A stretch of DNA of 64,000 nucleotides, taken from the NCBI GenBank assembly GCA_964019415.1, contig OZ025875.1:6409806-6473805 (forward strand). Reading direction: 5' to 3'. Below are positions 19,306 through 63,983 of this stretch, one piece after another. The position numbers were made by a program, and so were the translations under genes. The notes beneath the pieces were generated by a model. It made no database searches. It saw only the letters and a program-made list of their open reading frames with translations, and was not told the origin of the DNA. The DNA comes from Ianthella basta. Lineage: Eukaryota > Porifera > Demospongiae > Verongiida > Ianthellidae. The stretch's first letter is position 1, and each line of letters opens with the position of its first letter.

Positions 19306-35151
<15,846 letters not shown>

Positions 35152-36054: not shown

Positions 36055-39000
36055 CTATTCTGCTTTCATACCCTGCCTTATTTTCTGGTACTCATTCTTC
36101 TCCATTGTCCAAGGGTCCAATGCTTGGTACGGTGACCTCAGATTTGTATTGTTTGCTGCTGAAAGCCCTTCGGTGCAGACCTCTGCATATGTCCCAGCCC
36201 TTCCTTCCTCCATTTGTGCTGGACTACCAACATCATTGTAATAAGTGTGCCTTGAGGCAGTGGTACTTGTCCCTGTCCAGTGGTTCGCACTTCCCCTTTC
36301 ACTTTCTGGCTGAATGCCTTCAGTGGTGCGCATCGGCAGCTCTTTGCGATCTGTGTTTCTCTGTTTTACTTGTCTTAGTTTATTGACAGTCACTGCTAGA
36401 GCGACTGCAAGTACAGCCACATAAGTAATGAGGAGTAGGACTGCCACAATCGGGGAGAGGATGGCTAGGAGGAGGGGGTTGCTAGAGGGGGCCGTGGAGG
36501 GGACTGTGGAGGGGACTGTGGAGGGGGCTGTGGAGGGGGCTGTGGAGGGGGCCGTGGAGGGGACTGTGGAGGGGGCTGTGGAGGGGACTGTGGAGGGGGC
36601 TGTGGAGGGGGCCGTGGAGGGGGCCGTGGAGAGGGCCGTGGAGGGGACTGTGGAGGGGACTGTGGTGGGAGCTGTGATGAGTGAAGGGGAAACATGAATG
36701 ATAAGTTATGGTATACCTGCAAACATACTATTTTTCACTATCTTCCGCTTCTGCAATGGTGTACATGCACTGTATGGAGGTTAGACAGTTTGGAATGTAT
36801 GTAGCATATTGGCCTTAAATGTCTGCATTTATCTGCCTCCTGCACTCACCAACTATACATGTTTATCAGTCTGTTTAATATAACTTTTATAGAGTTCTCC
36901 TCGTTCTGTTTGTGCCAAGTATGTTTAAATGGGAATGTTGACTGAAATTATACAGTGATTTATGGTAGCTGCAAAGGGGGTACCCACATTGCAACTGATA
37001 AAGGCCTGTCATAGTGTAAAAGTTCCCCTGCCAAATTAGTTCCCCCGGGCCTAAAACGGCAGCGATGCGCTTGCTGGGGAACCAATTTGGTTGCAGTTAT
37101 GATTCCGGGGGGCCTACTTTGGGGGGCGTCCAAATTTGGCATGACAGGCCCTTTTGGGGCGGAACCTTTATTCTCATTGAAAGGTCTGCCACGTGATTAA
37201 CGCTCAAGAATCTTCCCCACCCAAATTCCTGGACGTGGTAATGAATCTCCTTTGAATTACTGTATTCCATGTACATTATTAATAGTTAGTGGAATTCTAT
37301 TGTGTTCACTAGGAGCTGGTCAGTTCTATCCCACTTCAATCTCTTGTGATAGTGATCCTCTTTAAATGGAGTGAGAATGTTGGAACTAAGAAACTAGAAA
37401 TATTTGGTTGCCTGATCTAATGTGTGTGAAGTGAATCAGTGAATCAATGAAGCGCTCTGCAGGTCTCCTTTACAGGAGGTAGCCAGTACACATACGACAA
37501 AAAGACACAAAGTTAGCATACCAGCATAATCTATTGTCATGATCAATAGCTAATTGCATTAGTGTTACATTAGCTATAATACTACTTAAAATACTCATGC
37601 CATCTCTTGTGTAAGTGTGAGTGTAATGTGTATGTGATAGCTGATTCTTATCCACCAGTTTTGGAACATGTACCTGTATACATACCTATCCATATTTGAA
37701 CTCACTTGCTTCTGCAGTAGTAACACTCTCCACTGCTGGTGCTGCACTCCTCCTACCACTGTCAAGTGCCCATGCTGTAATCCTGTACTGAGCACCTGGT
37801 ACTACAGGGCTAATTGTAACTTCCCCCCTATTCATACGTAGGCGTACGTTCAAATGATCTCCTATCATTGGTATACCAAAGCGGAACACTTCATTCCCTG
37901 TAATCACGCGAGTCATTCTCCCATTCCTCCTTTCCACTTCATATTCCACTGATGAAATTGTCTGTTCCTCAATCCTGAGATTTGGAATATTGAGGGGACC
38001 TGAATAACAGAATAAGCATTTTGTCACTACATACACAGCTCCTTCAACAACACTACTTGCTTATGCAGTAACTAATGTTGATAAATTAGTTTGGCACTGT
38101 GAGTAGATTGTGATAAGGGTATTTCAGTGCCACTTATGTTGCTGTTCTGATTTTCTAAGTATAGTCACTTCCCCCCTATTCATACGTAGGCGCTCGCGGG
38201 AGAACTTTGCGAACAACTGTTTTGCACTTCTCTTTGTATATATAAATTATGATGTTTATTGTATTACGTATAATAATAATATAATGAAACATCGCAGTTG
38301 GAATAGTCCAACCAGATGTGTTTGCAGCCATTTGTGCTTTTGAACTCACTGAGTACTAAGGATGTAGACGATCCATTCAATAGGCACTGAAATGCCGCCC
38401 AACTGGTGCCTGCAAAATCTATTCATACTACTTGTCACTCAGGCTCTTTGTGCCCTCAAGTTTTATGCTCTAAGTCCTGCAGACACCTCTTGGTAGGTAT
38501 GTAACTACTACATAGTCTTCCTACATGATGGGCTGATAGTACGTATATGTTACCCAGTCGGTAGACCAGCAGTGTTGGTGGTAAGTGTTTCCATACAGAT
38601 ACTAGACATCATGATAACATACTGGAGCACTATGGCCTTAATTGCTGGATACGGTACATTTATGAGAAAGGAGTTACAGAAGAAGCTATTGACTTTGGTA
38701 GATTTGTTGTGTTATATTTTATCGCGATATGCAAATGAACGCAGATGGACTACTGTCCATGCAGTACTGTACATACAGTACCATTCAGCTAGAGAGGATT
38801 TTCCTGCTAGCATTTCAGTGAACTCACTGTTGCCAGAGATGAAGAGGTAAAAGTAATTTTCCTCATTATTGCAGAACGCTTCCCTGTTCTCAAAAGTGCC
38901 AGTTGGATCCACTGCCAAAGTTGTTGTAGTTCCGTCTCTTGTCTCAATCACTCCCCCAGTTTGTGGGATTCCATTTATTGTGAACTCAGCTGTTCCACTG

Positions 39001-40051
39001 CTGACAGTGCAGGTGATCCTCCCAATCCCATCTGGACCAGATATCTGTTGTAAATCAGTTATGGGGAACTCACGAGGTATGAGTCTCCCATAGCTGTGGA
39101 CAACACGACCACCTACAGGCATGGTTTAGGGCATACTGAATGTAAAGTACAGTACAACAATTCACATGACGTTTGTTCACTTGTTATACAGCTGTAGTAC
39201 TAGGCAAACATACCGCTAACACTGAGTGTGAAGTTCCCATTAGCTTCCTGTCCCCCTGTAGCTGTCACCTGACAGGTGTATGTCCCTCCATCACTTGTGG
39301 AAGTCGTGTTAACAGTCAGGATGTGTTCATTGTAGACCTTTCTACCATAATACCCTTCTACTTCACATGGTCCATTTGGACAGGTCCAGGTGTAGCTGAG
39401 TGGTGTTCCAGAAAGTAGACCAACAACCCGACAGACTAAAAGTAGTGGAGTTCCAAGCTGAACTGATTCATTGGATTCAATGGTATCACTGCGTGTATAT
39501 CCATCAATAACAACCATTGGTTGTCCTATGTATCCACAGTAAGGAATAAATAATGGTTCTAATTGGAGCAACATGGCATCATGTATACTGTATACAGTAT
39601 ACATGGATATGTGGAGTATATGAATGCATACTAGCTGCAGGTGTACACAAATGAAAGTTGCGACATTGGAACTTTTATGTTTTAGAATCTTGTGAAACTC
39701 TACTGTTGCATCACAAATGTAAGCAACAGTAAAGTTGGCACTCACACATTAGGAAGTTGCCAAGATAGGTGGCTGAAAGGGTTAAAAGTGTGATTTTTCT
39801 GTATAACGTCTAGTTTGTCTTGATCTATCCTCATTTCTTGGACCATGGTTTTATATACCCCATAGTATGCATAGAAGAGAAAGTTACGTATATTTGGTAA
39901 GTGTTGGTTTGATAACTGTTCACTGTTGTGGCGTATTCCTTAATCCAACATTTTTGTTGTACTCCTTCTCACCTTCTGCTGAGTAACAGACATGTAGCAG
40001 TCCAGCTGCATAAAGAAGTAGGCACCACACTGAACCTGCTCCTGTTCCCAT
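36055..40051 (-). CDS. Ig/FN3 receptor A (type I membrane protein with long mucin-like stalk and ITAM-like tail)
   Basis: Exons: 40051-39973 (signal peptide MGTGAGSVWCLLLYAAGLL), 39525-39214 (Ig1), 39112-38828 (Ig2), 37999-37706 (FN3), 36671-36055 (stalk, TM, tail); 1587 nt, 528 residues, all joints phase 1. Ig1 has the core LVCRVVG...YTWTC...DGGTYTCQV; Ig2 has ITCTVSSG and a late Cys (EAFCNN); the FN3 has PGAQYRITAWALD. The stalk is about fifteen TVPS/TAPS units encoded by a 12-bp repeat, likely O-glycosylated. The TM helix (VAVLLLITYVAVLAVALAV) is followed by a tail with YAEV and YQALDPWTMEKNEYQKI. The second FN3 of B, D and E is absent. Ligand and function unknown; the design resembles immune-type receptors. 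Confidence 0.82.
36480..36671 (-). repeat. 12-bp coding minisatellite (TVPS/TAPS stalk)
   Basis: About 15 tandem 12-bp units of GGGGCTGTGGAG/GGGGACTGTGGA type on the plus strand, encoding Ser-Thr-(Ala/Val)-Pro in gene A. The other family members carry only one to three units at the same place. Confidence 0.9.
38161..38192 (-). pseudogene. Fragment of FN3 exon in gene A intron
   Basis: About 30 bases, including CCCCCCTATTCATACGTAGG, match the FN3 exon of gene A (37806-37844) almost exactly, followed by unrelated sequence. A stray partial duplication. Confidence 0.6.
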
Positions 40052-41788: not shown

Positions 41789-44700
41789 TTAGACCTTTGC
41801 ACTGTTTTTTTTCTTGCCCAAGGTCTCATACTGATTCCTTTCTATTGTCCCCAGTTCCAGCCCCTGATAGTGCCCCCACAATTCCCCAGTAGGGTCTGTC
41901 CCCTCCCCCACCTCATCATAGATCCGCTCCTTGGTCTGGGCATAACAAAGTGGGTCAGTGTGAGCCTTCTCTGCCCTCAACTTGTTCAGTTTATTGGCAG
42001 TCACTGCTAGAGCAACTACCAGTAGAGCCACACAAGTGATGAGGAGTAGGACCACCACACCCAGAGAGGCAGTGGCTGGGAGGAGTGGGTTGCTGGAGGG
42101 AACTGTGAGAGGGTCTGAGAGGATTGGGAGGAACATTTCAATGCTAAATAGTTGAAGTGCTTTCGTCCCAATGTGTGTGTACCTGTGAATGTGCTGATTT
42201 CATTTCCTCCTCCTCCTGCAATGATCTCCACTGTATGGAGGATAGAAGACAGTGAACAGTAGGCACTGTAAGTTATACAGGTAATGAACATTAGTTCCCT
42301 GTGCGTATATACAGTCTGAAGTAATGCTTACCAGGTGGTGTGTGGAAGTACCATGTTATTACTGCTTCACTGTCTGACCTCCCAGCTGAGTTGACAGCCT
42401 GTACTGCAATGTTGGTGTACACTCTGTTCCTCTCAAGTCCTGTCAAGTTGTAGTGGGTCAGGTTGCTCCCAGTGTCAATTGACTGTTCTGTGCCACTTTC
42501 TGGTGTGTAGTATATGACATAGTGCAGTACCTCTCCATTGGATTCAGTAGGAGGTAGCCAGTTCAGTTCTATTCCATTCTCAAATGCCCTGGTAACAGAT
42601 AGATGCCTTGGTGATGCTGACCCTGCAGTGTGGACAGCGAACAAAGCACAATTGCACCTAATTACGTATGTACTGTAACTGAAAGTGAAGGTTTGCCTGG
42701 GCTACTTAGTTGTGTGACACTACGAGAAGGGTGCTACCATGTAAGTCATGAAATAATGTAGTGTGACCCAGTGAAGGAACCTTGACTAGGGATCTCAGTT
42801 GTGATGATTTGTGATTCTAAATTAGAATCATTTCTAACTGTACAATACGTATGTACTTTGTACTTTTGGCAGGATGTTGCTAGATATTTTCTTCATACTA
42901 GCTGAATGCCTGCCCTTTGGGCGGTTCCAGTCTACATTTCATAATTTGAGCGTTTAGCCACACAAAACTGTCCCTTTAATTGGGAGCATTCCGTAGACTC
43001 ACTTCGTACAACTCTGTGCGCACAGAATTTACTTATGTTAATCCACTTTGTCTAAAAGCGTTCAGTGGCGCTAACCACCTTAGGTCACCCCCCCCCCCCC
43101 CTCCCCCCTGGATTGCCGTGATGTGCTCTTCTATGTTTGGTGAAGATTGCTGGAAAATTGAAAGAGGAGTTTCTGGACAACGAAACACAATCTTTTCTCT
43201 ATCTCTTAGATATGGTGGTGACCATAAAAGTGGCAAGAACTTGGACGTAATGGCGTTAAACCAAATTTCGGCTTGGCGAGGTTACTCACACTACGCCTCT
43301 TCGTAATCCTACCATGTTTTGCAACGCTCCGTCCAGAATTGAAGGAGTATATCCCGAAGCAACGAAAATGTGTGTTACTGTACGTTTATTATAAGAAGAT
43401 ACGTATGCTCTAATCATGGTGAACTTGCATGGAAGATTGTGTCACCAAAGTAAAGAAACAAGCTGTTGGCTTACTGCTGCAGTCCTGTTTTAATACAACA
43501 GATAACTCTCTGAGTATGTACTGTACACACATGCATCTCCTATTGCATGTCCATTGTGTATTGAAGTCATGCAGCATGCTGTGTGAAAATAGTGCATTCG
43601 TAAACTCACTTGCCTCTCCAGCGGTAGCACTCTTCACTGCTGGTGCTGCAGTCCTCTTAGAACCATTGTCTAGTGCCTGTGCTGTAATCCTGTACTGAGC
43701 ACCTGGTACTGTAGGGCTGATTGTAACTCTCCTCCCCGTACCTGTATTCACATACTCTCCTATCATTGGTACTCCAAAACGGAGCACCTCATATCCAGTA
43801 ATGACACGAGTTGTTACAGTGTCACTCCTGTTCACTTGGTACTCCACCCTTGTTCTGGTAGCTGCGTTGACAGTGATTCTTGGGACACTAAGTGAATCTG
43901 GGTGGTTAGCAATATATATCCTACATTATAATGTATATTATTTATTATATGTATTATACTATATATAATATGCTCCACGCACGCACACACACAGACAATG
44001 CAACCCTTCCAAGGTAATCTATAGAGTGCTACCAGCACCTTCTGCGAATGTGAGAGGGACCCTACTGTTTGATCACTTATGAAAGGGTTTGTCCATCATA
44101 ACACACACACACTGTGCAAGTCATAGCCACTGAAGAAGTGAAGAGTTTGCTGCTGTAACATTTGGTGAAGATGAATGGGTTTGGCGTTTCTACCATACAT
44201 ACTATAATTATACAGTATATTGTATGTGACTGCTTTGAGAAAAGGGGGCACTTTGTGCTATGTATAAGGTGTCACTACAGACAAAAACATGCAACCGAGT
44301 GATGTTTTGTGTAAATTGGCGATTTGCATATTCTGTACCTGTGGTATCGTCCCAACTTCTGGGCCAAGTTGAAATCTGTAGTCCCATCCCATGCTTCAAA
44401 CCAGGAATAATAGTTACGCCATCACCATGTTTACGCATAAAAAGTACAGAAACAAGGAAAGGCTACTACACAGTGGAATTCTCCATTGTCCCTACATTGA
44501 AGAGTGCTGCACCATACAATACTACACTCTTGTATGTAGTGACAATGGTGAATGCTCCACTGTGTAGTAGCCTTTCCTTGTTTCTGTACCTTTTATGCCA
44601 GCCCTAGCTACATCTTTAGTAGGTTTTGTAGAAAATTTTATTCTTTCTAGTTTCTGCACTTTTATGGAATGTAAACTCATATGATGCCACAACCACAGTA

Positions 44701-46937
44701 CAGCAATGCAGTTATACGACCCTCATGTTTTTATTCAGGAGCAGAACCGAAGTGGCAGGCTGAACCTAGACTCCGCACTAATTCAGAAACGTCCACCGGA
44801 AGTGACCTCGCAGTAATTAAAAATAGCGTCCCACTGGCACAACCATTGCGGATGGCACGCTAAATGGCATAGTGGCTAACGGCAACCGAAACTTGTCCTG
44901 TATGCACTTGTGAACGCTCATCTTACTGCATTTTGGGGCTGTTGGCCCAAAACAAGAGGACTAAGTGATCAACCGTGGTATATATATGATTACATCATTG
45001 TAAGTAGTGTCTTGTGCCTAGCAACGTCTCACGAAGGCCCGGAAACTGCCATTGGTGGACTGTTGGCTCATAGAGCCATCTAACCTACAAAAGGCACTTA
45101 TTGGCCGAAACCATCATAGAACTGTGGATGAATTATTCTTTTACTATTTAGCGTTCGTGAGTTACAACTAACAGAGAAGAATAAGAATAAGAATGAAATG
45201 AGAGTAAGACGAAGTACCGAAAAAAACGTCTATGCTTTCTACTCGACGGCGCCATGGCGCTTGGAAGTAAAGTTAGCAATGTAAACTGTATGGCCTCCCT
45301 TCCTCGCTGGTGATTCCTTTTGTTGGTTCTTGCCTCTGTTCAGGAGTACGTAGCACCACTTTTCATTTGTATTACAGCATGCAAACAACCACGGTCATCC
45401 CTACATAGACAGCAGAATTCAGGAGCATTACAGGCCATTTTCTCGTAATTGCTCCGAGCGTATTTTCATACTTTGAATGAGCATATCCCGAGAGCAGGAG
45501 CAGCTATTGAAGCGAAACAATGTGCAGCAGAGAGCTTTATCAACTGTACTTCTACCCAGTACCACTAACTCGAATCAACAAATGACACAAAAGCCCCCTT
45601 TTTTTCATATCTGCTCACATATGCTGTAACTTAACAGATATGTACTTACTGTATTTACATACATATGTAAAAGTACGAAAGGAATGGATTTGTGGTATTA
45701 TTGCGAGATCACATATAAGTACAAACTGTATGTGAACTCATTGCTGGTGCTGCATTATTCATCCCTGTTAGTGGTGACATTTTATTGTAGTATCCTTTGC
45801 TAAGTGTTCAACCAACATTTACATTACATGTAATCATGCATGCTAACTTGCACTTGAGATGAACAGATAGAAGAAGTTGGTGGCAGTAGTAGTGCAGTAG
45901 AGTTCTCTGTTCTGGAAACTGCCAGAATTGGTTGGATTCACTACCAGTGTTGCTGTAGCTCCTTTTCTTGTCTCAGTCACTCCTCCAGTTTCTAGCTGCC
46001 CTCTATTGGCACCAAACCTAGCTTCTCCACTGCTGACAGTGCAGTTGATTCTCCCAATCCCATCTGGACCAGATATCTGTTGTAGATCAGTTATGGGGAA
46101 CTCATGAGGTATGAGTCTCCCATAGCTATGGACAACACGACTGCCTGAAAGGTTCAGAGGGTAAATGTTATTATTCAACTTGTACAGTAATGCCACAAGT
46201 GAATTAGCTACACTAGAACACACCAGTGACTCTGAGTGTGAAGCTCCCATTAGCTTTCTGTCTTCCTGTAGCTGTCACCTGACAGGTGTATGTCCCTCCA
46301 TCACTTGTGGAAGTTGTGTTGACAGCCAAGATGTGTTCATTGTAGACCTTTCTACCATAATACCCTTCTACTTCACATGGTCCATTTGGACAGGTCCAGG
46401 TGTAGCTGAGAGGTGTTCCATAAGGTAGACCAACAACCTGACAGACTAGGATGAGTTGAGTTCCAAGGGTAATTGGATTCCCATAGAAGAGTGCGCGGTT
46501 GTTTATATAGCCATCAATCACTGCAGTAGGTGGCCCTGAAATTCCGAATAATAACATTTACAAAGCCATAAACATATGCACATCTGATAAATCAGTGACT
46601 AATGCACATACATCTGTGAGTAGAGTGTACTTATATACTGGCTAATGTGTATACTTGTGCAATATTTAAGCACGTATTAAGCATATGTATAAGTTTGCTC
46701 TTTGTTCTTGTTTGTACACATCCAAAGCAAAAGTGTGATACACAGTGTGCGTTGTAGCTTGTATTTTAACAGAATGCCCAATGTCTTACGTAGTTGTAAG
46801 TGTAGTTGGTACAGCTGTATATGTATTATAGTACCCTACTTTGTGCGATGTAAGTTCTTACCTCCTGAACATTGCCCTGCTAGTAGTCCGGGTATCAGGA
46901 GAGTAAGGCACCAGATTGAGCCTACTCCTCTCTCCAT
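41789..46937 (-). CDS. Ig/FN3 receptor B (two Ig, two FN3, TM, ITAM-like tail)
   Basis: Exons: 46937-46862 (signal peptide MERGVGSIWCLTLL), 46535-46224 (Ig1), 46144-45848 (Ig2), 43897-43610 (FN3a), 42622-42332 (FN3b), 42230-42183 (48-nt Gly/Thr linker), 42114-41789 (TM and tail); 1638 nt, 545 residues, all joints phase 1. Ig1 carries YTWTCPNGPC and DGGTYTC; FN3a PGAQYRITAQALD; FN3b IELNWLPP and HYNLTGLERNRVYTN. The TM is VVVLLLITCVALLVVALAV with a basic stop-transfer side. The tail contains YDEV and YQGLELGTIERNQYETL. The large intron between Ig2 and FN3a (2 kb) contains a foldback element. Several NxT/S sites suggest glycosylation. It is the fullest version of the family in this window. Confidence 0.85.
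43090..43108. repeat. Poly-C tract
   Basis: A run of C bases (interrupted once by T) in the gene B intron between FN3a and FN3b. Confidence 0.7.
44435..44598. mobile_element. 164-bp palindromic MITE-like element in gene B intron
   Basis: Starts GCATAAAAAGTACAGAAACA and ends with its inverted copy TGTTTCTGTACCTTTTATGC. The arms pair over about 70 bases each (AGGCTACTACACAGTGGA is perfectly conserved), so a single strand would fold as one long hairpin. Confidence 0.82.
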
Positions 46938-50442: not shown

Positions 50443-50446
50443 CGTG

Positions 50447-50506
<60 letters not shown>
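50443..50506. repeat. (CG)/(CA)n microsatellite
   Basis: GCGTGCGCGCGC followed by perfect CA, just downstream (3') of receptor C. Confidence 0.9.
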
Positions 50507-50508
<2 letters not shown>

Positions 50509-50554
50509 GGACAGCTTACAACCTTAAAGCTACAGGTCTCTTGCAGCCCCATCC

Positions 50555-53500
50555 TTAGAACTTAGCAGTGGAGCTCTTATTCAGGCTTTCGTACTGTCCC
50601 TTCTCCAGTGTTCCCACTTCCAGCTCCTGGTAGTGTCCCTTCTGTCCTCCATTAGAGGCTGTCTCCACCTCCATCTCCTCATAGGCCTCCTCTTTAGTCT
50701 TACTTTCCTTTTCTCCTGTCTGATTGTAGTAGTGAGGTGGGTCAGAGTGAGCCTTCTCTGCCCTCAATTTGCTCGGTTTGTTGGCTGTCACTGCTAGAGC
50801 AGCTACCAGTAGAGCCACACAAGTGATGAGGAGTAGGACCAGCACAGTCAGGAAGACAACAGCTGGGAGGAGGGAGTTGCTTGAGGGGGTTGTGGAGGGG
50901 ACTGTGGAGGGGACTGTGGAGGGGAGTGTGAGAGAATAAAGATTAACGATCTTTGTTTGTATTATTTGTGGGGTACTTGAACTTCACCTGTATTGCTGCA
51001 AATTTGGCCATCTCCCTCTGTACTTGTAGTAGCTGACAGTGTAAGCAGAATACACACATTTTTGCAGTGAATGAGGCACGGGCAGCATGAGATATGGTAT
51101 GTGAATATATGTGAAATCCTAAATGCTTTTAGGGTTTCACAAGTGTGTGTATCTCGATAGCTTTGAAGTAGCGTGGTGTTGATGTGGCGGTAGACCATCT
51201 GTTGCCGTATCTGCTCTAAAAATTCGTCATTCTAATTTTTGTCAGGGAAAAAAATATGCTCAAGTGCACTCTAATCGTGACAAATTTTCTTTTCTGTCTC
51301 TCTAATTTCTGCCATTGGCCTCTAATTTTTGTCATGAACAGGAAGCGTTCTAAATATTCGTCGGAAATGCCTGCAATATGGCTGTGACGGCCAAGGAACT
51401 AAGCCTAGGAACAAAGCCAACAATGCTCGCTGTTGTGTTTGTTCTTCTGGCATTGTTCTGTTCATCTATAAGCCTTCTCGATGCTGTGTACGTTGTTCAT
51501 TTTCCTTTTGGTGCGACAATGAGTTCAGTGATTGTGAATCTTCTCCAGATCCTTCTCCTTCGGACGGAAGCTCTGCAGAGTTTGTTGTGGATACGCCAGG
51601 CCCAGACTGGGAAGACGACCCTCCGACTATTGTCTTGAGTGACAACGAGGAAGGTCCGCCAAAGCCGAAGAATAAGACGCTCACAAAGTATTTCACGCCT
51701 ACTCCTCGTAGTACCTCGTCCCCGATTGCCGGAGCCCTGATGTCCTTGTACACGTGGTAGCATAGCACTGCTGTTCACACGGTCAATGTGAAAGTGGCCA
51801 TTTCAGCAAGGAACGTTCATACGAAAAAGCTCTCTAATCTTTCGTCTTTGCTCTAAAATGTGTTTCGTCTGATAACTCTAAATATTCGTCCCCTTCGACA
51901 GTCTTCTCCATTCCAGTTCTAATTGCCTTGAAAAGACGAAATTTTCGCTGCACTAAGGGTGACGAATATTTAGAGTGGATACGGTACTAACAATTTAGGG
52001 CCCTACCCCTGCTACCTAGTCTTTGTTCTGGGCCTTTGTCCTACTGTGTAGACTGGATACATACATGTGTACTTGTTATCATTGGGTTGATTAATGGTGT
52101 TGAGGCTGATACTTTCATGAGTTAAGCGTGAAGCTCTCGGATTGTGGACGGATAGTTACACATGCAACAATTCTCTCATCATTTCCTGCTGTACTTGGTG
52201 GTCTAGGTGGTGTAGGGGATTTTGTTCTGAATGTGGAGCATCCTGTGCCTACCCAAACATGTTACTGTTCAGTCTCAAATTCTTGTACCACAGATATCTC
52301 TTATTAGTCCACATGTATCCCTCTCACCATTTATTGACATGCAAAAAGAGCTTAGTAAGTGGCTGTTCTAAAGTGATAGATTCAAAGTGATCATGTAGGC
52401 AACTGATGGGGGTACACCTTATTGTCCAGTAGTGTTAGAGATTGTTGCTCAGCTATCACCAGTGCTGGCTTGAACAATGTGAGAGCAACTCACTTGCTTC
52501 TCCAGAAATAACGTGCAACACTGCTGGTGTTGCACTCCTCCTAGTACCATCATCAAGTGCCCATGCTGTAATCCTGTACTGAGCACCCGGTACTACCGGG
52601 CTGATTGTAACTCTCCTCCCTCTACCTGTATTCACATACTCTCCTATCATTGGCACTCCAAAGCGGAACACCTCATATCCAGCAATGACACGAGTTGTTG
52701 CATTGTCACTACTCTCCACTTGGTACTCCACACTTGTACTGGTAGCTCTGTTGACAGTGAGTCTTGGGACACTGAGTGGATCTGAATGATAGGTAATGTA
52801 TCTAGTGCATTCACATTACATGTGTGCATGCACTACCTACGTACTATACACAGCATGTATCAGACGACACGCTCGTGACATCTAACGAATGTGCCCAATA
52901 ACAATGGCTACTCTTATTTTGATGTATTAGTGCTCTTCAGTGAAAGTAGCCAAATGGTGGGGGCGCGGAACAATTGACGGTCATGGATAGGCTTTTTTGA
53001 TGTATTGAAATGCCAATGAACCCAAAGCCAACCTGGAGTAAGAAGAAAGCGGCTTTTGCTTTTCATACCCCATTTTGCTTTTCATATCCTTCTCCTTCTT
53101 TCCACTGAATTTTGCGTGCTCCTAGTGCATGATACAAGGCACCTACCAACCCAAGTCGTGTACAAGTACACACATACTGACGTGAAGGGTGAATATCCAA
53201 GTGCCAGTGACAATCCAATAAGTACGGCACTCGAGAGGGTATGAAGTTTGTCTTCCCCATGTATTTAGCTACCCCAATGCTGCCATTTTGCTGTTATGGT
53301 AACACGGCAGCTGGTTCATCTAGAGTGGCATAACTGTGCTTGATGTTCTGCACAATCTTCATCTAGTTTATTAATCTGATGTAGCCATAGTCCTTTTGCT
53401 ATGCAAAAACTGTACAAACTAGTGTATAAACATTCGTTTAGAATTATGTAAAAGGGACATAGGAATGGCCAGCAAAAATGCATAGAAAGAGCAGCAGTAA

Positions 53501-54725
53501 CTCAACATCATGATAAACAACATTTCCGTGAAGTTCGCTCTGCATTCCTAATTTCCTTGTAGCTAGTGGGATTAGCTACATAGATAGACATTTGGGTCCA
53601 TTTAACTTATAGCCATTCCTAAAATTTATATACATTAGTGTACATACATTACCTCAGGTTGTAGATATGTAAGTCAAGTAAGTAAGGCAACCTGAAATAA
53701 GGCCACTGTCCATAATACATAGTCTGTGCTAGGGTATGTTTTACTCTAATGTACTGTATACTGTACATACAAATTTTCATGGGACGTTATTTTTGTGAAG
53801 TTTGGGAATTCATGGAGGTTCGCAAATTAAAACTGTGTCCCACACATTCCACACACACATTCAAGACTACATTGCACATAGTCACATTCACTAACTTGTA
53901 CTTAAGACAGCCAGAGAGAAGAAATTGGTATTGATTTTGGTGCAGAACAACTGTTTGTTTTGGAAACTGTCATAATCAGTTGGATTTACAACCAGTGTTG
54001 CTGTAGTTCCATTTCTTGTCTGAGTCACTCCTCCAGTTTCTAGCTGTCCTCCATTTTCAACAAACCTAGCTTCTCCACTGCTGACTGTGCAGGTGATCCT
54101 CCCAATGCCATCTGGACCAGATATCTGTTGTAGATCAGTTATGGGAAACTCATGAGGTATTAGTCTCCCATAGCTGTGGACAACACGACCACCTGAATAA
54201 TTCAGAGTGTGTCTGAATACAAAATGCCACCTGTTTTCAGTTATTTCAGCTCTAATGGAACACATACCAGTAATTGTGAGTGTAAACCTCCCATTAGCTT
54301 GCTGTCCTCCTGTAGCTGTCACCTGACAGGCATATGTCCCTCCATCACTTGTGAAAGTTGTGTTAACAGCCAAAATGTGTTCACTGTAGATGTTTCTACC
54401 GCAGTACCCTTCTACTGCACATTGTCCATTTGGACAGGTCCAGGTGTAGCTGAGTGGTGCTCCGTGAGGTAGGCCAACAATCTGACAGACTAGAATGAGT
54501 TGAGTTCCAAGGGGAACTGAGCTCCCCGTTTTGAGGGTACTGTTGTGTGTGTAACCCTCAATTACCACTGCAGGTAGTTCTGTGAGTAAACAGTATCGCA
54601 TATTGCACCCTTTATATTTAGATGCCTACCTATAGGTGTAGGGTATCTACCTCACCTTGTGAGTGACACCCTGGTAGGAGTGCCACACAAGTTAAGACAG
54701 CTAGAAGAGCTCCCTTTTTCATCAT
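50555..54725 (-). CDS. Ig/FN3 receptor C (one FN3, ITAM-like tail)
   Basis: Exons: 54725-54656 (signal peptide MMKKGALLAVLTCVALLPG, unlike A, B and D), 54579-54268 (Ig1), 54192-53896 (Ig2), 52781-52494 (FN3a), 51032-50988 (45-nt linker), 50913-50555 (short VPST stalk, TM, tail); 1371 nt, 456 residues, phase 1 throughout. Ig1 has altered surface Cys (CAVEGYCGR). No FN3b exon is present; its expected position, between FN3a and the linker, holds a 780-bp TIR element. The TM is LVLLLITCVALLVAALAV; the tail has YEEM and YQELEVGTLEKGQYESL. The stalk acceptor could slip by 12 bp because the repeat unit itself ends in CCACAG. The 75-bp Ig1-Ig2 intron is in frame and lacks a stop. Confidence 0.82.
51205..51984. 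mobile_element. 780-bp TIR element with an internal coding-like segment
   Basis: Ends CCGTATCTGCTCTAAA and (inverted) CCGTATCCACTCTAAA, followed on both sides by ATTCGTCA-type sequence that is also repeated internally. It sits in the intron of receptor C where other members have FN3b. Target duplication not clear. Confidence 0.68.
51340..51760 (+). pseudogene. Coding-like segment inside the TIR element (unrecognised)
   Basis: A plus-strand frame open from a possible acceptor (GAACAG, about 51341) to TAG at 51758, with no ATG at its start. It has a Cys-rich part (KCLQYGCDGQG, ARCCVCSSG, RCCVRCSFSFWC), then an acidic Ser/Asp/Pro part and KNKTLTKYFTP near the end, which resembles a PCNA-binding box. 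It looks like a terminal exon of a transposon or captured host gene. Function not recognised. Confidence 0.4.
52915..53040. repeat. Interspersed repeat, copy 1
   Basis: Shares ATGTATTAG, GAACAATT, GTGGATAGGCTT-like (CATGGATAGGCTT) and GATGTATTGA blocks in the same order with 59462-59590. Both copies lie in introns or flanks of the receptor genes. Confidence 0.6.
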
Positions 54726-55883: not shown

Positions 55884-55938
<55 letters not shown>

Positions 55939-55939
55939 T
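54726..55939. other. Intergenic region between receptors C and D
   Basis: No gene recognised. The part at about 55480-55640 (3' of gene D) resembles 62140-62270 (3' of gene E), including TTGCGTCACTGACTACTGT / TTGTGTCACTGACTACTGT. A CA microsatellite lies at 55886-55937. Confidence 0.5.
55886..55937. repeat. (CA)n microsatellite
   Basis: Perfect CA run ending three bases before the stop codon of receptor D. Confidence 0.92.
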
Positions 55940-58900
55940 TTATTGTTCAGTTTGCATGTTAGTGTTCAGGCTCTCGTACTGTTTATTCTCCATATCCATT
56001 GTCTCCATTTCCAATTCCTGGTATTTTCCACGCTCTCCTCCAGTAGTGGTTGTCTCCACATCCATCTCCTCATAGTCCTCCTCATTAGTATTCTCCTCCC
56101 CTCCTCCTGTCTGGTTGTAGTTGTGAAGTGGGTCAGTGTGAGCCTTCTCTGCCCTCAACTTGTTCAGTTTGCTGGCAGTCACTGCTAGAGCAACTACCAG
56201 TAGAGCCACACAAGTGATGAGGAGTAGGACCACCACAGTCAGAAAGACAACAGCTGGGAGGAGGGGGTTACTGGAGGGGACTGTGGAGGGGGCTGTGGAG
56301 TAGCAAAGACTAGTTACTGTATATATTTTAGTTGTGAACTAAATACGTACTGTATATGCCAGTTCAGTAGTTAGACCTCACCTGTACTGCTACAGTACAA
56401 GTTGTGCCCTCTACTGTAACTGTAACTGTGAAGCTGACAATGAAGCTATAAAAGTGGCCATTTGTACTGTAGTAATTGAACTGTGTATTTGAATTACCAA
56501 GCGTGTGAGCATTGCTTTGCACACTAGTTACCCTCCACATACAGTACATTACTTATGTACTTCACAGCATACTATGACGTTGTATGAAATGTTTGTGTCG
56601 ACTACTACATTGATTGATACAGTCCAGTTGGCTATTGGCAAGAATACGCAGCATGTGCATAACCAATTGCTGATTTCCTAGCATTTTCTCTCTGCTTGAA
56701 TGCAACCACTTCTAGTCAACACACTATTGGTTCCTGTTAACATGGAATGCCATGTGAAACATTACAGTACAGGCATTATCAGAACGTATGTGTGACAGCT
56801 GCTAAATCATTTTTGTACGTTATACTTAATGGTCTAAGTGATACAGGGAATCTGTGCGTGGGAGTCTGGCAGGTAGATGACAACGTATGTAATTGGGGCA
56901 GAGTGCTTTTCAGTCATACTTCATCAATTTAAATACACTGCTTTTGATAGTATACATATGCATGAATATTTTCATAATCTAGGCCAGGACTCACCAGGTG
57001 GTGTGTGGTTGTACTGTGCTATTACTACACTCCTATCTGACCTCCCAGCTGAGTTGACAGCCTGTACTGTAATGTTGGTGTACACTCTGTTCCTCTCAAG
57101 TCCTGTCAAGTTGTAGTGGGTCAGGTCGCTCCCTGTACCACCTTCAGCTGTGTAGTATATGACATAGTGCACCTCTCCTTTGGGTTCAGTAGGAGGTAGC
57201 CAGTTCAGTTCAATTCCATACTCAAATACTCTTGTAATGGATAGTTGTCTAGGTGATGATGGTCCTGTAGGGTGGATGGTGATGCATCTAGATACGGATG
57301 TGCATAATGCAGAATAGTGTACAAAATTCAATATTTTTTATTGTTACGTTGTATGTAATATCTTTGAGGTCTCTTGTTGACTGGTGTCTGCCCTCACTTG
57401 CTCCTCCAGTGGTAACACTCTTCACTGCTGGTGTTGCACTCCTCTTAGTACCACTGTCAAGTGCCCATGCTGTAATCCTGTACTGAGCACCTGGTACTGC
57501 AGGGCTGATCATAACTCTCCTCCCTCTACCTGTATTCATATACTCTCCTATCATTGGTACTCCAAAGCGGAGCACCTCATATCCAGTAATGACTCTAGTT
57601 GTTATATTGTCACTCCTCTCCACTCGGTACTCCACACCTATACTGGTAGCTGTGTCCACAGTGAGTCTTGGGACTCTGAGTGGATCTAAAAATTTAATAT
57701 GAAGTAAAGTGTATTTGTCAACAGCACCCATTGTATAGCAATCTCATCGCTTTACTATGACAGCAGGGACAGTAACGCGTGTGGCTATAAGTGAGCTGTA
57801 TTTTCCTTTAGTGTTTCATTAGCCAACCTTTCACCAGCTGCTGTTTTGTTATATACAAATGCTGGTGTGAACTGAATAAATGTGCAATGGTGCAATACAA
57901 TTAACATTGGTTGTTTTATTATATGTACGGTACAGTACGGTGCATAGAAAACATGACGATAATTCCATTTATCGGTTAACTCTTTTCGTCATTATCACTC
58001 CTTTATCCGTGAATATTTTTGATTACCTGTTAGCGTTTAACCGGTAACAGTCAACAGAAAACCATTAATTGAAATAAAATGGCCGTCAGCAAGAACTGCA
58101 AGACGAGCGATTTCAACCCATGGAGAACACTCCTGGAGTCCCACTTTATAATCCCTGAGAGTTTAGTGGCACCCTGTGCAGTAGTAGTGCTTTTCGGAAT
58201 CTATTGCAGAGACACGGCCACTATTATTATCAGATAGGAAGACAACGGCTCAGCGCGCTACGATGGGACCATTCTCCTTCGCAAACACTGGAAACTGCTC
58301 CTGCGCACCTACATATACTGTTGCCCTTTAGTAGGGGTAAATTCGCTACCAGTTAACAATTAAACGTAACTAGATACCGATTAACGTTTCACCGTTCGCT
58401 GTTTGCTAACGATAACCGATGATAACTGTTACCAGTTTTCTGTTAACGTCATGTTTTCTATGCACCGTACCGTATGTTTTCATGGTTTACCTGAATGCAT
58501 TTTGTATATACTGTATGAGTGAGCAGGCAGACTTGTATAGCCAGTCCTCACACATATCAACGCTTGTGTGGAAGATTGTGCCATGTTTGCATTATTTGCA
58601 TGCATGTGTACTAACTTGTACTGGAGATGGCCAGCGAAAAGAAATTGACATTAATATTGGTGCAGTACAGCTGTCCATTCTGCAAACTGTTAACATCAGT
58701 TGGATTCACTACCAGTGTTGCTGTAGCTCCATTTCTTGTCTGTATCACTCCTCCAGTTTCTAATTGTCCACCATTAGCAGCAAACCTAGCTGCTCCATTG
58801 CTGACAGTGCAGTTGATCCTCCCAATCCCATCTGGACCAGATATCTGTTGTAGATCAGTTATGGGGAACTCGTGAGGTATGAGTCTCCCATAGCTGTGGA

Positions 58901-59746
58901 CAACATGGCTACCTGCATAATTCAGAGTGTGACTGCATGAATACAGTATGTAACCTGTTTTAAATTATAACAGCTCTAATACAACACTTACCAGTAATAA
59001 TTGTGAGTGTGAAGCTCCCGTTATCATCGTGTCTTCCTGTAGCTGTCACCTGACAGGTGTATGTCCCTCCATCACTTGTAGAAGTTGTATTGAAAGCCAA
59101 GATATGTTGATTGTAGACCATTCTACCATAATACCCTTCTACTTCACATGGTCCATTTGGACAGGTCCAGGTGTAGCTGAGTGGTGTTCCATAAGGTAGA
59201 CCAACAACGTGACATACTAGGATGAGCTGAGTTCCAAGGGGAACTGAGTCCCGAGATGCGAGGGTACTGTTGTCTGTGTAACTATCAATCACTACAGTAG
59301 GTGACCCTGAAATTAGAATTATGTGTGAAGCATGTGATCGATACCATGAATAGGGCCATTAACAGTGCCCTATCTTTGTTGTGTATGATGCACATCTTAA
59401 TCGGTGCGTAAACGGGAATGCAGGGATGTGAAGCAATTCAATCTGTAGATATATGGTATCTCCTATGTTAATGTATTAGCACGCTTCAGCGAAACTATCC
59501 AAACGGCGGTGGCAAAGAACAATTAAAGGCTGTGGATAGGCTTCTTTGGATGTATTGATGATGGCAGCATACCCAAAGGCAACCTGTTATTTAGGCTATG
59601 GTTGTTTGTGTAGTCATGCAGCTATGCAGTGTTTGTCATTCAGTACAAAGCAAGTACGTACAGTACTTACCTCCTGAGCAGAACCCTGATAACAGTCCAG
59701 TAACCAAGAGAACAGGACACCAGATTGAGCCTACTCCTCTTTCCAT
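55940..59746 (-). CDS. Ig/FN3 receptor D (two Ig, two FN3, TM, ITAM-like tail)
   Basis: Exons: 59746-59671 (signal peptide MERGVGSIWCPVLLVTGLL, nearly that of B), 59306-58992 (Ig1), 58912-58616 (Ig2), 57685-57398 (FN3a), 57264-56995 (FN3b), 56292-55940 (APSTVPS stalk, TM, tail); 1599 nt, 532 residues, phase 1 throughout. A linker-like exon near 56391-56440, homologous to those of B and C, is one base out of phase and is probably skipped. The TM is VVVLLLITCVALLVVALAV. The tail has YEEM and YQELEMETMDMENKQYESL, with 11 residues between the two motifs instead of 9. The intron between Ig2 and FN3a contains a TIR element (57935-58470). Confidence 0.83.
57935..58470. mobile_element. 536-bp TIR element in receptor D intron
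   Basis: Left end GTACGGTGCATAGAAAACAT and right end its exact inverse (ATGTTTTCTATGCACCGTAC). Subterminal GTTAACG/CGGTTAAC motifs recur in both halves. No transposase ORF; non-autonomous. Confidence 0.85.
59462..59590. repeat. Interspersed repeat, copy 2
   Basis: Second copy of the repeat at 52915-53040, in the intron between the signal-peptide and Ig1 exons of receptor D. Confidence 0.6.
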
Positions 59747-60880
59747 CTCAATCTGTGCGTCACTCTATCTCACTTATCGCAGAGTTTTGTGGGTTAAGTG
59801 TCTAGTTCATTCTTATATTTTCTGCCATACAGTACACATAAATGTATGTTTGGCTTCTGTTTTCATCCATAGAGGTGGTAATGGCTGCTGATAACATATG
59901 TAATAATTGTTAGTATGCATTTGAAGATGTTTTTAGCTGTGGTTTAATGGCTGACAAAAACATGCAATGTTTTAGGTAATGGAGGGCAGTGTGCAAGAAA
60001 CACTTCCTTTACCACTAATGGCACTAATTGTATAGCTAATGCAAATTAAGCTGTGATGTATATCCAGCTCTACCCACACACTGCACTGATCAAATCACTG
60101 CTGGTGAGTGTGTGTACTTTAAATGGTGTGCATGCAGTACTGATTGGCTCGTATGTACATACGTACACAAGTGACTGGATGTCACATTGCCTTACCTTTC
60201 CAGTTCATATTTCTGTGGTGTGTAATCGAATCTAGTGACTCTAGAACTGTGAACTGGTGTTTTGATGTAGCGTATTTGGTGGAATTCTTTAAGAACAAGA
60301 CATAGTACCTCTGTGCATATAATTGATATGCCGGACTAGCTACTGTACCTCTCATCCAAAGCACCAAATGGTGCACTCATTGAACCAATTCCATACTTGT
60401 GATTTCATTGGCAATATCTACTGTGCACCAGTGACTCTATGGCCTCTCTATTGTTGCTGTGGTGTTTAATTCTGAAATATTGTTTGTACAGTGCAGGGTA
60501 CTGAAAAAGGTGTTCTCTTGCAGAACAGTGCATACAGTAGGCTATCAAGTTCATAGTTCTCGATGACGTACGTATGTATGTATCCATGCACACCTCTTGG
60601 ATGTCATGCTCAAGCCCTGTGTATGATGTAGGGTTTTCTGATTTCAGTGAAGCCACTGAAGAGTGTGTGGCAGTACATTTTCTTGTGTGAATGTGTGATA
60701 CATCAATAACTACTGGTCTGGCACTGTCAGACAGATCAATGGGCTTTGGATGCCCAGATTATTTGAAATTTATGGCTTGACAATACTGTGGAAAGCTGTT
60801 TGCCAGTGCAGAGTATGAGTTGTATTGCACACATGTATTGGTCATATCACACACTAAAAGCATACGTATCTTAAGAGTTG
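59747..60880. other. Upstream region of receptor D
   Basis: No gene recognised. The first about 120 bases resemble the upstream region of receptor B (shared CAGAGTT...TTCTTATAT and ATGTATGTTTGGCTTCTGTT blocks), consistent with duplicated promoters. Confidence 0.45.
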
Positions 60881-61452
60881 TCACTTTTTCTTCTTACAAC
60901 TCTTATCCATGACTGCATAGACTATGTTGCCACTCGGAGCCTTGCTGTCTCCATCACTCCACTGCCCAGACTGGCTGTCTGCCTTTGGCTCATGCTTGAA
61001 CCCTGTCGTGTTGTCACCCTCTACCTCCCCCACATCACCAGTCTCGGCCACTCTTCTCCCTTTATCTGTTGTCTTATCCATTGGCATGGCATGCAGTTCA
61101 TCCTTGTTTGTGATGGCAGACTCATCATCCTTCCTCTGTCCCCCCTTCTTGCTCTTGTTCACAACAGCATATAGTTCTTCAACATTGGTTCTCTTGGTGG
61201 AGTGGCCGTTTCCTATGAAACTGCTGCCGTCCTGTCAGCATCCTCGTATTGATCAAAGCCATCGTCAACTAGCATTGTAAGCCCTGATCTTCACTCTAAC
61301 CGTTGCTTCTCCTCTGAGTCATGCTGTGGCACACTATAACTCCTCAAATTCCTCCCTTACTCCCTACCAATCAGTCCTACCCCTCCCCAACCCTTCCTAC
61401 CTGATTGAAGGGTGGTTGCAATGAGTCCTAGTAGAACCACCAGCACTTTCAT
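60881..61452 (-). pseudogene. Gene F: small receptor-tail gene with signal peptide, apparently frameshifted
   Basis: Exon 61452-61401 encodes a signal peptide MKVLVVLLGLIATTLQS with a phase-1 donor, as in the receptor genes. The acceptor near 61291 leads into LVDDGFDQYEDADR, which soon stops. One base out of frame, a longer frame runs to the stop at 60881 with VEELYAVVNKSKK, a hydrophilic Asp/Glu/Lys-rich stretch, and NIVYAVMDKSCKKKK. The two YAV(V/M)xKS repeats look like cytoplasmic tyrosine motifs. No TM or ectodomain is seen. It may be a decayed receptor gene, an unseen splice form, or a one-base sequencing error. Confidence 0.42.
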
Positions 61453-62302
61453 TGTCAGAGTTGCCACATTTTGTACACTGGGGATGGGTAGTTTGCTGTA
61501 TTTCCCCTTTGCGCACTTCCTGCTGCTGCTGTTGTAGCAGACTTGGTGCTTCCAGTGTAAAGCAGTGCAGCACAGAAGACAGTAGTACAGTATGGTACTG
61601 TAGCCCTCTAGTGTTTTGTCCATATATGGACATTCTGTGTATATTGACACTGTTATGTTTGCATCCAGCAGCTGTTGGTCTTCATGTGTAACAGGAGCTG
61701 ACCTTTCTGTTACCATGGAGCTTCAGCTGCACCCATCTAACACACAGGTCATGTAGCAGGCTTCAGGTAATGCAATACTTCTAGTTGAAACCCATGCAAA
61801 CACATCCAAGGAGTGGGTCGCTAATTGCTCTGTTAGCTGTTGCTTAATCTGCTGCAGCTGCTCTAGTACGTACAGTATGTGCAGTATGTTGGAGTTCAGA
61901 TTTGTGATTTACAGTAGTATGGAGCATTCATTTCCTGTCATAACATAATGTGCAATTTCATTAGCATGATTTCATTCTGTATGCAAGTTAAGTCTATCTG
62001 TGCACATACATACATATGTACGTATGTATGTAGCGATTGAATATGCATTTTGCATAGCTTCAGACTATTTGTTGAGATTTGGCACAGACTTGTGTACGTA
62101 GTTTTATTGTAGTGCTGTATTATGCTCATACATTAATGATCTGCTGTCCAATGGGTCACATGTGCATACAGTCATTGTGTATCTGTTGTGTACTAATGTA
62201 GTGTACGATTACTGTCACCACACTCCTTTGTGTCACTGACTACTGTGATGTTAGAACAGAGCTATGGTATCAGCACTAGTATGATGACTCGTACTGCTGC
62301 CA
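61453..62302. other. Intergenic region between gene F and receptor E
   Basis: No gene recognised. It contains the sequence shared with the 3' flank of receptor D (62140-62270). Confidence 0.45.
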
Positions 62303-63983
62303 TTAAGGTCTACAATGCACACATACACTGGGGGTTTTATTCAGGCTCTCGTATAGTCCTTTCTCCAGTGTCCCCAGTTCCAGCTCCTTGTATTTTCCCC
62401 TCTGTCCTCCAGTAGAGGCTGACTCCACCTCCATCTCCTCATAGACTCCCTCCTTAGCCTTCCCCTCCGCTCCTCCTGTCTGGTCATAGTAGTGAGGTGG
62501 GTTAGTGTGAGCCTTCTCAGGTGTCAACTTGTTCAGTTTGTTGGCCGTCACTACTAGAGCAGCTACCAGTAGAGAAACACAAGTGATGAGGAGCAGGACC
62601 ACCACAGTCAGGAATACTATGGCTGCAATGATGGAGTTGCTGAAGGGGGCTGTTAGGAAGAAGATAGAAAGATCTTTCTTTTCTGGCTACTTTTGTGGCT
62701 GAGATATGTACGTAGCAAACAGTGTGGGCAGAATATGTTTATTTCCTAGTATTTGAGGTATTTGAGCATATACTCATTCTCTTCTAAAGTGTTACTCACC
62801 AGGTGGTGCGTGGTTGGAGAAATACCATGCTATTACTGCACTCCTGTCTGACCTCCCAGCTGAGTTGACAGCCTGTACTGCAATGTTGGAGTACACTCTG
62901 TTCCTCTCAAGTCCTGTCAAGTTGTAGTGGGTCAGGTTGCTCCCAGTATCAATTGACTGTTCTGGGCCATCATCTGGTATGTAGTATATGACATAGTGCA
63001 CCTCTCCATTGGGTTCAGTAGGAGGTAGCCAGTTCAGTTCTATTCCTTTATCAGACATCCTCATAACAGATAGGTGCCTTGGTGATGATGGCTCTGTAAT
63101 TTGGATGATGAAGTTTATACAGCATAGATGTAAGGGAAATGTAAAGGTAGACATAGTGCACCTCTTCATGGGGTTCAGTAGGATCTGTATTCTTTGCTAT
63201 CGCCAGTGAAGGCTTGTACAATGTGACTTTGTAGTGCAAGCAACTCACTTGCTTCTCCGGTGGTAACAATCTGCACTTCTGATGTTGCACTTCTCATAAT
63301 TTCACCAAGTGCCCATGCTGTAATCCTGTACTGAGCACCTGGTACTGCAGGGCTGATTGTAACTCTCCTCCTTCTACCTGTATTCACATACTCTCCTATC
63401 ATTGCTACTCCAAAGCGGAACACCTCATATCCAACAATGATGCGCTTTGTAATAGTGTCATTGCTCTCCACTCGGTATTCCACACCTGTGTGGGTAGCTG
63501 TGCTGACAGTGAGTCTTGGAACACTGAGTGGATCTGAAAGTAAGCATTTTATGCCAGTAATGTGAGTAGCACTACTTTACCATTTGCAAGGGACATGTTA
63601 CAACATAGCATTTTACATTACATAGCAATGAAGATAGCACAATGCGCACATTCAAGATTACATTGCATGTAATCACGTTTGCTTACTTGCACTTGAGATG
63701 AACAGATAGAAGAAGTTGGTGGCAATATTGGTACAGTACAGGTCTCTGTTTTGAAAACTGTCAGAATCAGTTGAATTCACTACCAGTATTGCTGTTGATT
63801 CATTTCTTGTCTGAGTCACTCCTCCAGTTTCTAGCTGTCTTCCATTGGCAACAAACCTAGCTGTTCCACTGCTGACAGTGCAGTTGATCCTCCCAATCCC
63901 ATCTGGACCAGATATCTGTTCCAGATCAGTTATGGGAAACTCATGAGATATGAGTCTCCCATAGCTGTGGACAATACTACCAC
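62303..63983 (-). CDS. Ig/FN3 receptor E (partial; 5' end beyond the window)
   Basis: Exons in the window: 63983-63687 (Ig2), 63533-63249 (FN3a), 63093-62800 (FN3b), 62649-62303 (short stalk APFS, TM, tail), all phase 1. Ig1 and the signal peptide must lie to the right of 64000. FN3a reads RRRRVTISPAVPGAQYRITA and lacks two residues found in B and D near ALGEIMRS. The TM is VVVLLLITCVSLLVAALVV. The tail has YEEM, YKELELGTLEKGLYESL and a unique C-terminal extension ending CVHCRP. No Gly/Thr linker exon is present between FN3b and the TM exon. Confidence 0.83.
63148..63184 (-). pseudogene. Fragment of FN3b exon in receptor E intron
   Basis: ACATAGTGCACCTCTTCATG and GGGTTCAGTAGGA repeat the FN3b exon sequence at 62989-63023 with small changes, inside the FN3a-FN3b intron. 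A partial local duplication. Confidence 0.65.

Follow-up and report, generated by a model that had tools for sequence, protein, structure and literature searches.

A tandem array of Ig/FN3 type I receptors with tyrosine-motif tails in the sponge Ianthella basta: a candidate recognition complex

Introduction

The closest described counterparts of the locus analyzed here are clustered receptor families of the immunoglobulin superfamily (IgSF) in other animals. The Alr genes of Hydractinia are described as clustered loci for single-pass IgSF membrane proteins of low identity, at least 41 in number plus pseudogenes (PMC11067881), and motifs of the immunoreceptor tyrosine-based inhibition or activation type (ITIM, ITAM) have been reported for them (PMC12065747). 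The FcoR family of Botryllus is described with 53 loci for type I proteins whose ectodomains combine a V-type immunoglobulin (Ig) domain, sushi and two C2-type Ig domains, whose tails carry ITIM, hemITAM or YxxI/L/V motifs, and which are paired with fester genes (PMC12065747). Vertebrate paired receptors (KIR, LILR and others) are presented as clustered genes that join similar ectodomains to different signalling systems, the activating members by way of a charged transmembrane residue and a separate ITAM adaptor (PMC3533184). Here we describe a family of type I receptors with Ig and fibronectin type III (FN3) domains in the sponge Ianthella basta, starting from a window of 64,000 nucleotides (C8:6409806-6473805) of the 209-Mb genome.

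Sponges are reported to discriminate self from non-self in grafts (PMC5450542), and a Geodia Ig receptor tyrosine kinase and Ig-TIR receptors exemplify Ig ectodomains on sponge membrane receptors (PMC12018476, PMC6208332). Almost 200 "cytokine receptors" with kinase, Ig and FN3 domains are listed for Halichondria panicea (PMC8242945), and Ig and FN3 genes are cited as more abundant in low-microbe sponges (PMC6208332); such sets may contain relatives of the present family under other headings. We found no tandem Ig/FN3 receptor array with tyrosine-motif tails from sponges in the literature, nor the present domain recipe in any paper covered, with subscription papers and bioRxiv mostly outside the search, which makes this weak evidence of absence.

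We consider it probable that the array is a large complex of type I recognition receptors at the cell surface, which evolves fast and works like the paired-receptor complexes of immunity and allorecognition. Its domain recipe, size and tail-class blocks set it apart from Alr, FcoR and paired receptors as these are described. It shares with Alr the clustered, single-pass IgSF genes with tyrosine-motif tails, but has at least 182 units, higher identity among paralogues, a fixed Ig-Ig-FN3(-FN3) order and tails arranged in blocks. Like FcoR it is a large type I Ig family with tyrosine-motif tails; in contrast to FcoR it has FN3 domains, and no sushi domain was seen in six proteins scanned. Whereas activating paired receptors borrow an adaptor, here the motif lies in the same chain, and the transmembrane helices in the window have no charged residue. 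From the sponge Ig-kinase and Ig-TIR receptors it differs by its FN3 domains, its SH2-type motifs and the absence of kinase or TIR domains from the window tails.

Size and position of the family

An initial annotation of the window, made from the sequence alone, recognized five same-strand receptor genes and likened them to the Alr genes. The five genes stand with their exons as placed, but as the extent of the family they are a large undercount. Genome searches with one exon each as query gave at least 150 Ig2 places and at least 150 Ig1 places, and a third search added more. Pairing Ig1 and Ig2 places within 2.2 kb, with unpaired exons counted as separate units, which may inflate the number, gave at least 182 units, of which 129 have both domains and 53 a single Ig exon of the two listed. 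On C8, 149 units lie within 1.39 Mb (6.264 to 7.653 Mb) at a median spacing of 7.0 kb, so that IgSF transmembrane genes are clustered in one interval, as in the Alr family. The 16 units left of 6.4 Mb are on the plus strand and the 133 right of it on the minus strand, and the window lies where these two arms converge. The remaining units are on C16 (18), C3 (10), C4 (4) and C20 (1), and there may be more family members.

Two pairs of Ig2 places on C8 score equally (6842444 and 6862126; 7490959 and 7540811) and are perhaps recent segmental duplicates. In two loci, L053 (4083-9238) and L056 (1382-9029), two successive ectodomain cassettes lie upstream of one exon for transmembrane helix and tail; these may be two-module receptors or alternative sensor exons.

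The array could instead be mostly the product of birth-and-death expansion with few working members, its count raised by unpaired matches and by exons that are partial or relics. The single-exon units and the equal-scoring Ig2 pairs would fit, as would a stray tail exon and two members without signal peptide in the window (see below), and stops do occur (4/150 Ig2 places, 2/150 Ig1 places, 5/43 window-class tails, more in matches to the YAVVDKSKKK tail class). However, few of the scored exons carry stops, and tail tyrosines are conserved across assemblies. The units are also not haplotype copies, because paralogues average 65-78% identity per domain and are too divergent for that. We consider this explanation very improbable.

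Gene structure in the window

The five genes, A to E from left to right, occupy positions 36055-63983, all on the minus strand and transcribed leftward. Each domain has its own exon, and all exons are open frames. The order is signal peptide, Ig1, Ig2, FN3a, FN3b, and then stalk, transmembrane helix and tail in a single exon:

36055..36671, minus: gene A Ser/Thr/Pro repeat stalk, transmembrane helix and divergent tail (YAEV, YQAL, YQKI); open frame, tail-class match E 3e-14
36471-36676: gene A stalk repeat, 12 bp x17
37704..37999, minus: gene A FN3a exon; paralogue match, phase-1 acceptor
38826..39112, minus: gene A Ig2 exon; paralogue match, phase-1 acceptor
39212..39525, minus: gene A Ig1 exon; paralogue match, phase-1 acceptor
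39971..40051, minus: gene A signal-peptide exon, coding part; L040, L044 and further loci have a similar leader
41789..42102, minus: gene B transmembrane helix and tail (YDEV, YQGL, 9 residues, YETL)
42330..42622, minus: gene B FN3b exon; Pfam fn3 E 2.2e-13
43608..43897, minus: gene B FN3a exon; paralogue match, phase-1 acceptor
45846..46144, minus: gene B Ig2 exon; query of the genome Ig2 search
46222..46535, minus: gene B Ig1 exon; Pfam Ig_3/Ig_2/I-set, query of the genome Ig1 search
46857..46937, minus: gene B signal-peptide exon
50555..50901, minus: gene C short stalk, transmembrane helix and tail (YEEM, YQEL, 9 residues, YESL)
52492..52781, minus: gene C FN3a exon (no FN3b found)
53894..54192, minus: gene C Ig2 exon
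54266..54579, minus: gene C Ig1 exon (upstream signal-peptide exon not found)
55940..56280, minus: gene D transmembrane helix and tail (YEEM, YQEL, 11 residues, YESL)
56993..57264, minus: gene D FN3b exon
57396..57685, minus: gene D FN3a exon, modelled as FN3
58614..58912, minus: gene D Ig2 exon
58992..59306, minus: gene D Ig1 exon
59666..59746, minus: gene D signal-peptide exon
60884..61180, minus: stray exon behind gene E, like the YAVV-DKSKKK tail class of C8:7.18-7.47 Mb (34.5% identity, E 5e-7)
62303..62649, minus: gene E transmembrane helix and tail (YEEM, YKEL, 9 residues, YESL)
62798..63093, minus: gene E FN3b exon
63247..63533, minus: gene E FN3a exon
63685..63983, minus: gene E Ig2 exon (Ig1 outside the window)

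In all 17 Ig/FN3 exons an AG acceptor stands a single base ahead of the first complete codon, in agreement with the phase-1 exons of the initial annotation (the check was restricted to phase-1 sites), and a phase-1 donor was seen for 11 of them. Compared with the first paralogue, Ig1 is 72-78% identical (4 genes), Ig2 65-80% (5 genes), FN3a 55-75% (5 genes) and transmembrane helix plus tail 34-68% (5 genes), all far above chance.

The architecture that the initial annotation ascribed to all five genes stands with several corrections. Two Ig domains are present in genes A to D; the end of the window cuts gene E, whose Ig1 follows at C8:6473872-6474177. As annotated, there are one or two FN3 domains, FN3a in all five genes and FN3b in B, D and E, with none found in A or C. 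Signal-peptide exons were found in A, B and D only: none is recognizable for gene C in the window, and none was recognized for gene E in the DNA examined past the window end. The Ser/Thr/Pro stalk is long in A and short in C, with little or none of it in B, D and E. All five tail exons terminate in stop codons without a kinase or TIR domain, so that the window genes were rejected as kinase-bearing receptors and are not of the Ig receptor tyrosine kinase kind. The stray exon, which may be a relic or an alternative tail, is not among the genome matches to the YAVVDKSKKK class at E<=0.001.

Identity of the domains

Ig1 of gene B is matched by Pfam Ig_3/Ig_2/I-set and is closest, in fold and sequence profile, to Ig domains of NCAM, titin, DSCAM and contactin. 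Neither Ig2 nor FN3a has a Pfam match at E<=1 (one member of each scanned), and none of 90 relatives of FN3a matches Pfam fn3; the assignments of these two domains rest on predicted folds. The model of FN3a (predicted local distance difference test score 65.7) matches FN3 domains with a best E of 8.7e-5 and a template-modelling score by target of 0.73, which supports an FN3 fold. For Ig2 the models point less strongly to an Ig fold, and recognition as Ig by sequence was not obtained. By profile or fold, the proteins thus contain at least one Ig domain, which places them in the IgSF, and an FN3 domain. Scans of six window proteins gave no TIR, SRCR, sushi or aggregation-factor match in Pfam, and there was no match to the kinase family PF07714 in C8:6.26-7.66 Mb among the best 130 of 2397 candidates.

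Many adhesion molecules have Ig domains followed by FN3 domains. Together with the likeness of Ig1 to NCAM, contactin and Dscam and the FN3 fold, this order raises the possibility of a cell-identity or adhesion code, in which homophilic Ig/FN3 molecules would sort cells within the individual in the manner of Dscam or clustered protocadherins, and the tails would tune adhesion. The two cassettes before a single tail in L053 and L056 would suit splice choice in such a code. The family differs from NCAM, contactin and Dscam, however, in that its members have just two Ig domains, occur in hundreds of tandem copies and carry classes of tyrosine-motif tails. That the tail motifs are strongly enriched and conserved and that tail classes differ by block (see below) speaks against the adhesion code, since adhesion alone needs neither; so does the fact that most family genes of this genome are closest to each other and not to counterparts elsewhere. 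We regard such a code as improbable, if less so than an array of mostly non-working genes.

Tail classes and tyrosine motifs

In array genes read outside the window, the same ectodomain cassette is joined to different tails. Grouped by eye, there are at least six tyrosine-rich tail classes. The array thus combines similar ectodomains, different signalling tails and a gene cluster, as paired receptors do.

The window class has YEEM or YDEV, then a YQEL-like motif, nine to eleven residues and a YESL-like motif. Its 43 matches, fragments included, are on C8 (38, all but one at 6.26-6.49 Mb), C4 (4) and C15 (one, weak). A second class, with YAQP/YAKP, YYNTR and YDYAVV, was read at C8 6.51-6.98 Mb; it is complete in L046, L047, L051 and L052, L048 and L049 lack its last two motifs, L040 has a fragment of it, and L044 on C3 has a similar tail. 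The YAVVDKSKKK class (76 matches including fragments) is found at C8:7.18-7.47 Mb; further matches, which extend to 7.52 Mb and occur on C16, are weaker. Near intact tails at C8:7.29-7.45 Mb there are also some matches that contain stops. Other tails have YQPI/YTNG repeats (L042), multiple YQEL/YEQL/YQKV motifs (L043, L054, L057) or YQSI-x9-YASL (L056). The classes are arranged in chromosomal blocks: 66 labelled C8 tails, two classes of them labelled by search matches without fragments and the rest from the tails read, form 11 runs, as opposed to 41.9 expected and a minimum of 30 in 5000 shuffles.

Motifs were counted in 21 tails that passed a filter for transmembrane helix and tyrosines, which missed at least the tails of gene E, L046 and L054. 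YxxPhi (Phi being L, I, V or M) accounts for 69 of 156 tail tyrosines, the shuffled mean being 22.3 and the maximum 37 in 1000 shuffles, and tandem YxxPhi pairs at a spacing of x6-12 occur in 11/21 tails versus 0.76 expected by shuffling; because the tails are related, these counts are not independent. YxxP (17/156, shuffled mean 7.7) and YxN (13/156, mean 7.4) were reached by shuffles, with up to 19 and 20, respectively, and only the YxxPhi and tandem-pair counts exceed every shuffle.

An ITAM usually reads YxxL/I-x6-8-YxxL/I. The spacing in the window is 9 in genes B, C and E and 11 in D, so the tail motif is best described as ITAM-like, with looser spacing than the usual definition. The comparison with Alr made in the initial annotation is supported in kind, as a tandem IgSF complex with tyrosine tails. 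Whether output is activating or inhibitory is not safely readable from the tail motifs.

Where the receptors vary

Domain statistics were taken from 55 Ig1, 57 Ig2, 48 FN3a and 35 FN3b exons; 30 loci had been chosen as best Ig2 matches to gene B, so the sample leans to one branch. Mean amino-acid identity is 0.78 for Ig1, 0.66 for Ig2, 0.65 for FN3a and 0.72 for FN3b. Median pairwise ratios of non-synonymous to synonymous change (dN/dS) are 0.61, 0.51, 0.89 and 0.44 in the same order, and in FN3a 35% of 1111 pairs exceed 1. The values near 1 in FN3a could be due to diversifying or to relaxed selection. Positive selection across the whole ectodomain is unsupported, FN3a being a possible exception.

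The BC, C'E and FG loops, the usual binding loops of an FN3 domain, lie together at one of its poles. In FN3a they vary by 1.61 bits as opposed to 0.70 bits for AB/CC'/EF, a contrast reached by 0 of 10,000 permutations, which nevertheless rests on the conserved CC' and EF loops because the AB loop (1.48 bits) and strands A (1.58) and G (1.40) vary too. FN3b is unlike FN3a, with 0.29 bits in its BC loop (loop limits set by eye). In Ig2, the first third is nearly fixed, and no element varies more than the FG loop (2.05 bits).

Silent difference is 0.18 in Ig1 versus 0.34 in Ig2 (44 genes; bootstrap difference 0.11-0.20); for the 15 genes located left of 6.53 Mb the values are 0.18 and 0.24 (bootstrap difference 0.03-0.08). 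This suggests homogenization by exon-wise gene conversion, with codon constraint as the alternative. Exon-to-exon distances within genes correlate moderately (rho of the proportion of silent differences, pS, 0.32-0.56).

Relatives in other assemblies

A protein database of genomes and metagenomes holds 515 relatives of Ig1+Ig2, 983 of FN3a and 95 of the window tail class. Some are from the same species, as 12 of 240 relatives compared with a small part of this genome match it at >=95%. For one protein of contig 4666589, the best full-length match to this genome is 67%, with partial pieces up to 72%, and for one of contig 2013018 it is 76%. The family has multiple copies here and is also found in one or more assemblies whose sequences do not match this genome, so it is not the set of single-copy conserved orthologues whose finding would have spoken against a recognition system.

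Nine of the 95 tails were set apart as same-species (contigs 442452 and 878056, supported by sequence, and 221924, assumed). Among the 86 left as other assemblies, four tail tyrosines are 94-98% conserved; in the 13 tails from contigs 4666589 and 2013018, the two of this set that were compared with this genome, they are present in 13, 13, 13 and 11. Of 53 own genes, 47 are nearest, among the relatives compared, to another gene of this genome and 6 to one from elsewhere; the "other" set of this comparison may include same-species proteins. In a tree, own genes and other-assembly genes interleave, which is compatible with an older family whose turnover is in part lineage-specific.

These findings bear on a narrower proposal, that the array is specifically a histocompatibility complex. 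Its polymorphic members would bind themselves or partner alleles on a neighbour, and their tails would set fusion or rejection, as for Alr or FcoR. A tandem IgSF complex with tyrosine-motif tails as in Alr and FcoR (PMC11067881, PMC12065747), variable binding-type loops (FN3a, Ig2 FG) and lineage-specific turnover speak in its favour. On the other hand, members average 65-78% identical, whereas Alr proteins are described as having low overall identity (PMC11067881), some 180 units exceed the needs of an allodeterminant, and the main text of an Amphimedon graft transcriptome study does not contain "immunoglobulin" or "receptor" (PMC5450542). We consider histocompatibility as the specific function doubtful, though a stronger candidate than the adhesion code.

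A model for receptor function

For the broader reading as a complex of recognition receptors, we propose the following model. The shared ectodomain Ig1-Ig2-FN3a-FN3b would be a conserved frame that presents variable loops, members differing mainly in the latter half of Ig2 and in the loops of FN3a. A ligand, whether from microbes, symbionts or self and non-self, probably reads the variable parts at the domain junctions. One transmembrane helix would link the ectodomain to a class-specific tail; ligand contact would cluster receptors, Src-type kinases would phosphorylate the tail tyrosines, and the phosphorylated tails would dock SH2 proteins according to class. The docking code of the window class may be the ITAM-like YxxL pair plus YxxM/V, and that of other classes YxxP, YxN-like or YAVV motifs, a single sensor frame thus being wired to different outputs. 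Both SH2 domains (70 matches) and open frames for SH2 kinases are present in the genome. At C4:2.797-2.954 Mb, four window-class receptors (2.900-2.924 Mb) lie between SH2-kinase (Src-type) frames at 2.797 and 2.944-2.954 Mb.

Several observations weigh against recognition. The membrane-distal Ig1 is the most conserved part of the ectodomain, opposite to many recognition receptors, and all dN/dS medians are below 1. Variation in FN3a extends to the AB loop and strands A and G, the strict ITAM spacing is missed, the motif counts come from related tails, and genes C and E have no recognizable signal-peptide exon. Syk was not identified, nor is it excluded, one tandem-SH2 locus having been read (L060, C14:6.595 Mb), which we take to be phospholipase C gamma.

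A more elaborate version is offered tentatively: a sponge-lineage recognition complex and candidate for an unsolved allorecognition locus, with some 180 germline sensors that carry hypervariable loops on a conserved Ig-Ig-FN3-FN3 frame, are connected block by block to six or more phosphotyrosine output codes and in some genes place two cassettes before one tail, so that splicing could choose the sensor. If true, the logic of a leukocyte-receptor-like complex would be older than, or independent of, those of cnidarians and chordates. For non-self recognition in a sponge, the array provides a concrete candidate locus whose members can be counted. It allows a test of whether the paired-receptor logic with tyrosine motifs predates cnidarians and chordates or arose apart from them, and offers a large natural set for studying one sensor frame wired to many SH2 outputs.

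Other features of the window and the genome

Between the two receptor arms, the left half of the window appears to hold a Furry-type host gene, as a frame at 22403-22984 (plus strand) matches Pfam MOR2-PAG1_N (cell morphogenesis, Furry type). Beside it, at 27762-31778 (minus strand), is an open gag-pol-like frame of a Ty3/gypsy-type long terminal repeat retrotransposon with reverse transcriptase, RNase H, integrase and zinc knuckle matches in Pfam. No RNA family was found in the window at gathering threshold. Two repeats were seen, a 17-bp repeat of about 39 copies (20271-20940) and a 2.3-kb CA repeat with strong strand skew (23988-26320). Elsewhere in the genome, C12:1.688-1.713 Mb holds a dense array of the best-scoring FN3 exons, several with repeated scores.

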